Both the position numbers and the translations under genes were made by a program. Positions 17,435 through 63,394 of a stretch of DNA of 64,000 bases are shown here, piece by piece. The stretch is from Panopea generosa. Lineage: Eukaryota > Mollusca > Bivalvia > Adapedonta > Hiatellidae. The stretch spans positions 1,884,501 to 1,948,500 of the forward strand of contig CM055897.1 in the NCBI GenBank assembly GCA_029582155.1. Direction: 5' to 3'. The stretch's first letter is position 1; every line of letters begins with the position of its first letter. Under the pieces are notes generated by a model that did not search any database, had not been told where the DNA came from, and saw nothing but the letters and a program-made list of their open reading frames with translations.

Positions 17435-17566
17435 ATTTAATAAAACGGAGCAGCAGAATCCTTCACACTGGATACTGAAGAAATGATTACGGCCTGTGAC
17501 ACCCAGGACTTTGTCCCGTTTGGCCGAGAATATGCTCGTTTACATCCTGGGAAATTCCAAATACAG
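17435..17566 (+). CDS. ANAPC1: ANAPC1 exon with start codon (coding exon 1; CDS 17483-17566)
   Basis: Acceptor GTTTTAG, 48 nt of 5' UTR, then 28 codons containing QDFVPFGREYARLHPG. Phase 0 out, donor GTATAA. Confidence 0.88.

Positions 17567-63394: not shown

Follow-up and report, generated by a model that had tools for sequence, protein, structure and literature searches.

Minisatellites of the 'mirage' kind span four exon-intron boundaries of ANAPC1 in the clam Panopea generosa

The ANAPC1 (APC1) gene of Panopea generosa, as found in a stretch of 64,000 nucleotides analysed here (hereafter the window), contains four minisatellites that each include one of the gene's own splice sites. The name 'mirages' was given to tandem repeats lying across exon-intron boundaries of the amphioxus gene Adh3 (PMC3087553, accessible text), and the ANAPC1 arrays are a further case of this known kind, in another phylum. 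We favour, with a probability of roughly two in three, the reading that the four minisatellites are independent of one another, each having arisen by a local duplication that was tolerated and then enlarged by minisatellite growth. According to this proposal, local tandem duplication of a short segment (21-97 bp) would happen to include an exon edge together with its splice site; splicing would still pair the two nearest sites of the exon, such that the closest copy is used and the extra copies land in the intron; and the array would then expand through the usual turnover of minisatellites (unequal exchange or slippage) and so lengthen an intron that was already there. Duplication of a junction would be tolerated since the exon-proximal site is the one that is spliced, and if proximity decides which site is used, a duplication across a junction would stay hidden in the intron, where the additional units are presumably selectively neutral. 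The best reading is thus that the ANAPC1 mirages lengthen existing introns and make no new ones.

The assignment of the gene to ANAPC1 is supported by exon 10 (30387-31385), which matches the APC1 chains in the PDB with an E-value of 1.2e-67 (phmmer), and by the joined exon pieces, for which the top protein matches are bivalve ANAPC1 sequences, headed by those of Mercenaria mercenaria, Mya, Dreissena and Ruditapes. The gene model was built by tblastn with the Mercenaria protein followed by refinement of the splice sites, and comprises 5148 coding bases encoding 1716 residues with zero stops, the median exon length being 90.5 nt. The protein is 84.5% identical to Mercenaria ANAPC1 over 1705 aligned residues and 84.0% identical to Ruditapes ANAPC1 over 1541 residues. 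The 40 exons and 39 introns of the refined model agree with the 39 visible introns that had been counted in a first-pass annotation of this DNA; the end given for exon 40 is that of the tblastn match only, and ANAPC1 runs on past the window. The Ruditapes ANAPC1 record (P0004) is without residues 793-956 (numbering of the window protein), a stretch across the exon 14 junction, and there may be annotation or assembly trouble in the record at this point. Intron 11 contains the remains of a reverse-transcriptase element on the minus strand (33598-33930; RVT_1, E-value 1e-8), the neighbour of which, an open reading frame at 32481-33332, matched no Pfam family.

Table 1. Positions in the window of ANAPC1, its four junction arrays and the splice sites taken as working sites within them
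Feature	Position	Strand	Basis
ANAPC1 (APC1), exons 1-40, 39 introns	17483..63394	+	phmmer, protein search, tblastn and splice model
39-bp minisatellite, 4.1 copies, intron 9 donor	29614..29771	+	Tandem Repeats Finder and gene model
Intron 9 donor GT, exon-proximal unit, taken as working site	29631..29632	+	Splice model, protein alignment
54-bp minisatellite, 38.9 copies, intron 14 donor	38416..40511	+	Tandem Repeats Finder and gene model
Intron 14 donor GT, exon-proximal unit, taken as working site	38462..38463	+	Splice model, protein alignment
97-bp minisatellite, 12.0 copies, intron 26 acceptor	49948..51111	+	Tandem Repeats Finder and gene model
Intron 26 acceptor AG, last (exon-proximal) unit, taken as working site	51043..51044	+	Splice model, protein alignment
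21-bp minisatellite, 41.8 copies, intron 36 donor	60377..61268	+	Tandem Repeats Finder and gene model
Intron 36 donor GT, exon-proximal unit, taken as working site	60392..60393	+	Splice model, protein alignment

The first-pass annotation had placed four arrays on splice junctions of ANAPC1, and all four splice sites do fall inside arrays detected by Tandem Repeats Finder (TRF). In all of them the unit holds exon sequence, a splice site and intron sequence, with splice signals kept in many units. The 39-bp unit comprises 17 nt of exon 9 followed by the donor GTAATG (GTCATG in one unit) and is present in four full units, whereas the 54-bp consensus unit consists of 46 nt of exon 14 followed by GTAAGTTA and is repeated in 39 unit rows, of which the final one is incomplete and two are irregular. 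In the 97-bp array, inside which exon 27 starts (position 51045), all 12 units are made up of 30 nt of intron end and 67 nt of exon 27. The 21-bp consensus unit, of which there are about 42, contains 15 nt of exon 36 (encoding SNDN and part of R) and the donor GTAAGT. It had also been claimed that every unit carries both coding sequence and the splice site; among scorable units this is borne out by the exon 27 array (AG intact in 12 of 12) and the exon 9 array (GT intact in 4 of 4), but a few units have lost the GT in the exon 14 array (intact in 36 of 38) and the exon 36 array (37 of 41). The arrays account for 19% of intron 9, 97% of intron 14, 77% of intron 26 and 69% of intron 36. Median differences from the consensus per unit are 1 in 39 positions (exon 9), 4 in 54 (exon 14), 2 in 97 (exon 27) and 3 in 21 (exon 36), and on the sequence this unit-to-unit divergence argues against simple duplication by the assembler. 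In the exon 9 and exon 14 arrays divergence is greater in the exonic than in the intronic part of the unit, and in those of exons 27 and 36 it is smaller.

As the first-pass annotation had stated, the units of the four arrays are unrelated: none of the consensus sequences matches any of the other three arrays with an E-value better than 1.6, and comparison of the consensuses with the remainder of the window, beyond 60 bp from the array in question, gave nothing better than 0.14. At these values (at least 0.14, for the window only), we reject a common origin of the units, or a repeat elsewhere in the window that feeds them. Rfam yielded no family at gathering scores. The claim that each array derives from a junction of the gene itself is upheld by the exonic part of each unit, which is ANAPC1 coding sequence. 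Relatives share this sequence to differing extents: SNDNR at intron 36 is present in 17 of 18 relatives compared, IP-V at intron 14 in all 17 that cover this position and GTSDLSMAD at intron 26 in 6 of the 18, while the short piece at intron 9 (xDR followed by RSQ or RSH) can be recognised clearly only in the five sequences from heterodont clams and in two from unionids. Because relatives have this coding sequence too, the array is a product of the exon and not the reverse. In mean identity to the other units, the unit anchored in the exon ranks first of 12 in the exon 27 array, first of 42 in the exon 36 array and sixth of 39 in the exon 14 array. R-loops had been put forward as a cause of the duplications. 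GC skews of the units on the coding strand are 0.71, -0.29, 0.18 and 0.43, and with no consistent G skew a shared R-loop cause is unsupported; R-loops, or G-rich seeding, were rejected as the common cause on this account.

The favoured reading depends on which of the repeated sites is spliced. When the exon-proximal site is used, the protein aligns with those of relatives without a unit-sized insert at all four junctions. The alignment comprised 36 proteins, mostly from molluscs with one nemertean and one annelid; several of these are partial and P0004 is blank at intron 14. Inserts within 5 residues of the four junctions reach a maximum of 3 residues, in six proteins at intron 9 and one protein at intron 14, with none at introns 26 and 36. 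Refinement of splice sites ranged over approximately 45 nt beyond the match ends for donors and 70 nt ahead of them for acceptors, which left far array units out of reach; since the splice model searched only near the match ends, the choice of the near unit rests on the protein comparison. We scored the sites with a matrix derived from the gene's 35 other introns. The exon-proximal donor is tied by two further GT sites in the array of exon 9 and by nine in that of exon 36, and in the exon 14 array 62 GT sites score at least as well as the exon-proximal donor, which is the weakest of the gene's 39 donors. Five acceptors in the exon 27 array outscore the exon-proximal one. Given decoys of equal or higher score, the strength of the sites does not account for the exon-proximal choice. 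In exon definition the two sites of a short exon pair together, and such pairing would explain why the exon-proximal site is chosen. We infer that the RNA is spliced only at the exon-proximal copies, and the arrays offer a natural experiment on how splicing selects a single site among dozens that are nearly identical.

Splicing at a decoy donor would lead to an in-frame stop for 4 of 4 sites in the exon 9 array (one of them in the trailing fragment), 35 of 37 in the exon 14 array and 40 of 40 in the exon 36 array. Among the distal acceptors with a fair score in the exon 27 array, three (50171, 50462 and 50753) are in frame and stay open and the rest shift the frame. Apart from these three, the first distal donor of exon 14 (38516) is the only decoy expected to give a stop-free product that keeps the frame. 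The suggestion that purifying selection tolerates duplications that leave one working junction is plausible, in that exon-proximal splicing keeps the protein continuous at all four junctions. The splice dinucleotides in the decoy units are not exceptionally conserved: counting the splice pair itself, 18 of 54, 3 of 21 and 71 of 97 adjacent pairs in units of these lengths are as conserved or more so, and we reject selection on the decoy splice sites on this basis.

To what extent the position of the arrays could be accidental was considered against a null model, in which each array was collapsed to one unit, leaving 39728 bases of which 5148 are exonic. A seed in this model has the length of the unit and is neither wholly exonic nor does it swallow an exon, and the seeds that span a boundary were counted. 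The sample comprised the 14 TRF arrays in the gene with a period of at least 10 and a score of at least 50, after manual merging of rows that overlapped; it excluded two arrays of 4-bp units (54613, 62186), and for a 46-bp array we took length over period as the number of copies (37). The P values that follow are all post hoc, because the window was picked for this very feature, and relate to one gene. Irrespective of copy number, 4 of 14 arrays lie over junctions as compared with 1.14 expected (P 0.021). With cut-offs on copy number the corresponding values are 4 of 9 against 0.74 for at least 2.5 copies (P 0.0035), 4 of 7 against 0.63 for at least 3 copies (P 0.0015), 4 of 5 against 0.51 for at least 4 copies (P 0.0004) and 3 of 4 against 0.43 for at least 10 copies (P 0.0038).

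These figures bear upon the explanation that the arrays are ordinary intronic minisatellites, four of which include a junction by chance and were noticed through a reader's selection. The excess over all 14 arrays is modest, and lowering the TRF score to 36 adds short arrays of which none, by inspection against the junction list, lies over a junction, both of which are in keeping with chance; at cut-offs of 2.5 copies and above, however, the probabilities under the seed null are far smaller, and chance placement fits the four junction arrays poorly. We regard chance as a rather unlikely account. The earlier view that four such arrays are hard to ascribe to chance thus receives support, post hoc, from the placement of the large arrays in ANAPC1, which exceeds that of random seeds. 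Random placement predicts 0.5-1.1 arrays where 4 are seen, suggesting that something beyond chance and tolerance may act.

One such factor would be a bias in amplification linked to the junctions, whereby duplications would arise everywhere but those that span a junction would grow large more often, through either a feature of transcribed exon edges or the continued action of the exon copy, which is under selection, as an unchanging template. Of the arrays with 4 or more copies 4 of 5 lie on junctions, against 0 of 9 of those with fewer (Fisher P 0.005), although this comparison is again post hoc and comes from one gene. The unit anchored in the exon is identical to the consensus in two arrays. 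However, units farther from the anchored one are no less similar to it in the three arrays tested (Spearman -0.19, 0.23 and -0.18, none significant), so that no template effect is visible, and the ordinary conservation of the decoy splice dinucleotides likewise tells against a bias. We consider such a bias possible but rather unlikely. Since a bias and chance address only the abundance of the arrays, either could be compatible with duplication and tolerance as outlined above.

Degenerate copies were also sought at the 70 junctions located more than 40 bp from any array, a filter that drops 8 of 78 junctions including the four array junctions. There were none at a score of at least 28 and two at a score of at least 24, as compared with 1.5% and 4.6%, respectively, of 3000 random intronic positions outside arrays. 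With no clear degenerate copies at the other junctions, there is no sign of a steady process that leaves old remnants, and old degenerate mirages at these other junctions were rejected at these scores. Inserts in relatives at junction 15 (14 and 15 residues) and junction 23 (32 and 31 residues) are, by eye, not repeats of the flanking sequence.

The anatomy of the four introns bears on their age relative to the arrays. The partner boundary lies outside the array by 611 bp (intron 9), 73 bp (intron 14), 329 bp (intron 26) and 387 bp (intron 36), and in none of the four do both boundaries come from copies of one duplicated segment. Because the partner boundary is outside the array in all four cases, the introns are independent of the arrays, and introns 9, 14, 26 and 36 are most likely older than the arrays that they contain. 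It is accordingly very improbable that the arrays represent visible intermediates of intron gain, as the first-pass annotation had it on the model of Rogers, in which tandem duplication across AG/GT makes new introns: the exon 9 and exon 36 units do contain AG/GT, but those of exon 14 (TCT/GT) and exon 27 (AG/AA) do not, in relatives the protein runs uninterrupted over each junction, and we reject this origin on anatomical grounds, the second boundary being outside the array in every case. Both the 1989 Rogers model and the ANAPC1 arrays involve local tandem duplication of splice signals; in the model, as outlined in the accessible text of PMC3087553, both ends of a new intron are provided by the duplication, whereas in ANAPC1 the array includes a single boundary of an intron that is already there. 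Tandem genomic duplication is described as a route of intron gain for potato RdRp in the available part of PMC4974935.

The closest counterparts of the ANAPC1 arrays are the mirages of amphioxus, which the accessible portions of two papers (PMC3087553; PMC3902484) describe in Adh3 of Branchiostoma floridae and B. lanceolatum, in the globins BflGb6 and BflGb9, in troponin C and in PGBD5. They are found at donors or acceptors, with AG or GT kept in many units, and their units measure 10-72 bp in Adh3 and up to about 160 bp in the globins; regular splicing is reported to be undisturbed, and length instability and variation between haplotypes are also reported (PMC3087553; PMC3902484, same portions). 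The arrays in the clam are alike in comprising repeats that span a boundary, at donors or an acceptor, with splice signals kept. They differ in belonging to a bivalve mollusc, in that four occur in one gene with up to about 42 copies, and in being known from one DNA sequence. Human internal tandem repeats, some of which lie at exon-intron boundaries, resemble the ANAPC1 arrays in being of minisatellite class and in altering intron length or gene structure, but according to the part of the source at hand they concern genes in segmental duplications and can form novel introns, most with support from alternative transcripts (PMC2812944). The VNTR6-1 of TERT, a 38-bp intronic minisatellite linked to splicing, has a unit of similar size; it is described as within the intron, and the accessible text mentions no splice site in its unit, whereas each ANAPC1 unit holds one (PMC11830802). 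Titles and abstract openings in the open-licence literature gave no report of junction arrays in a mollusc, which is weak evidence that none exists, and the accessible text of one molluscan study mentions intronic tandem repeats and not junction arrays (PMC3448621). The presence of four mirages in one mollusc gene raises the possibility that mirages are more widespread and have been overlooked. We would put forward only as speculation that in this clam lineage splice junctions are favoured places for minisatellite amplification, and not merely for the first duplication, and that mirage growth is a general means of intron lengthening in bivalves that arose independently of amphioxus. Any bias of amplification towards exon edges is countable in any well-assembled bivalve genome.

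Two of the units have further peculiarities. The end of exon 9 (29614-29630) encodes LDR-MDR, where five heterodont clam sequences (from four species) have a single xDR and three residues fewer. At the DNA level LDR-MDR corresponds to a 9-nt near-repeat (TTGGATAGA ATGGATAGG, with the last base across the intron) that adjoins the donor, and the four full 39-bp units carry this near-repeat in the same or a slightly changed form. Judged from the sequence, the near-repeat could represent an older and smaller duplication at the same junction that has turned coding, a reading that is only a suggestion because this region of the protein is variable. The 97-bp consensus unit has no stop in any of the three forward frames, a property also seen in 39 of 4000 97-mers drawn at random from introns and in 1 of 37 windows at acceptors, and overlapping open reading frames of 405 and 419 codons traverse the array.

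Other arrays in the window include a 37-bp repeat of 3.3 copies (62629-62750) that begins 5 nt inside intron 39, adjoining the donor with the GT not included, and the 46-bp-period array in intron 7 (24966-26683), which extends over 1.7 kb, is diverged (71-79% matches) and lies 1.5 kb away from the nearest junction. The minus strand carries a second gene (10728-15514), which encodes a DUF4706 domain (PF15797, E-value 7.8e-19) at 15212-15514 and presumably resembles C1orf198; open reading frames at 12311-12544 and 10728-11444, which match no Pfam family, appear by eye to be further exons of this gene. Finally, two arrays at 119-4143 (98.9 copies) and 6458-7626 (28.5 copies), about 2.3 kb apart, consist of a 41-bp satellite (CATGCACACTTATGCCAAGTT...) and look alike by eye.
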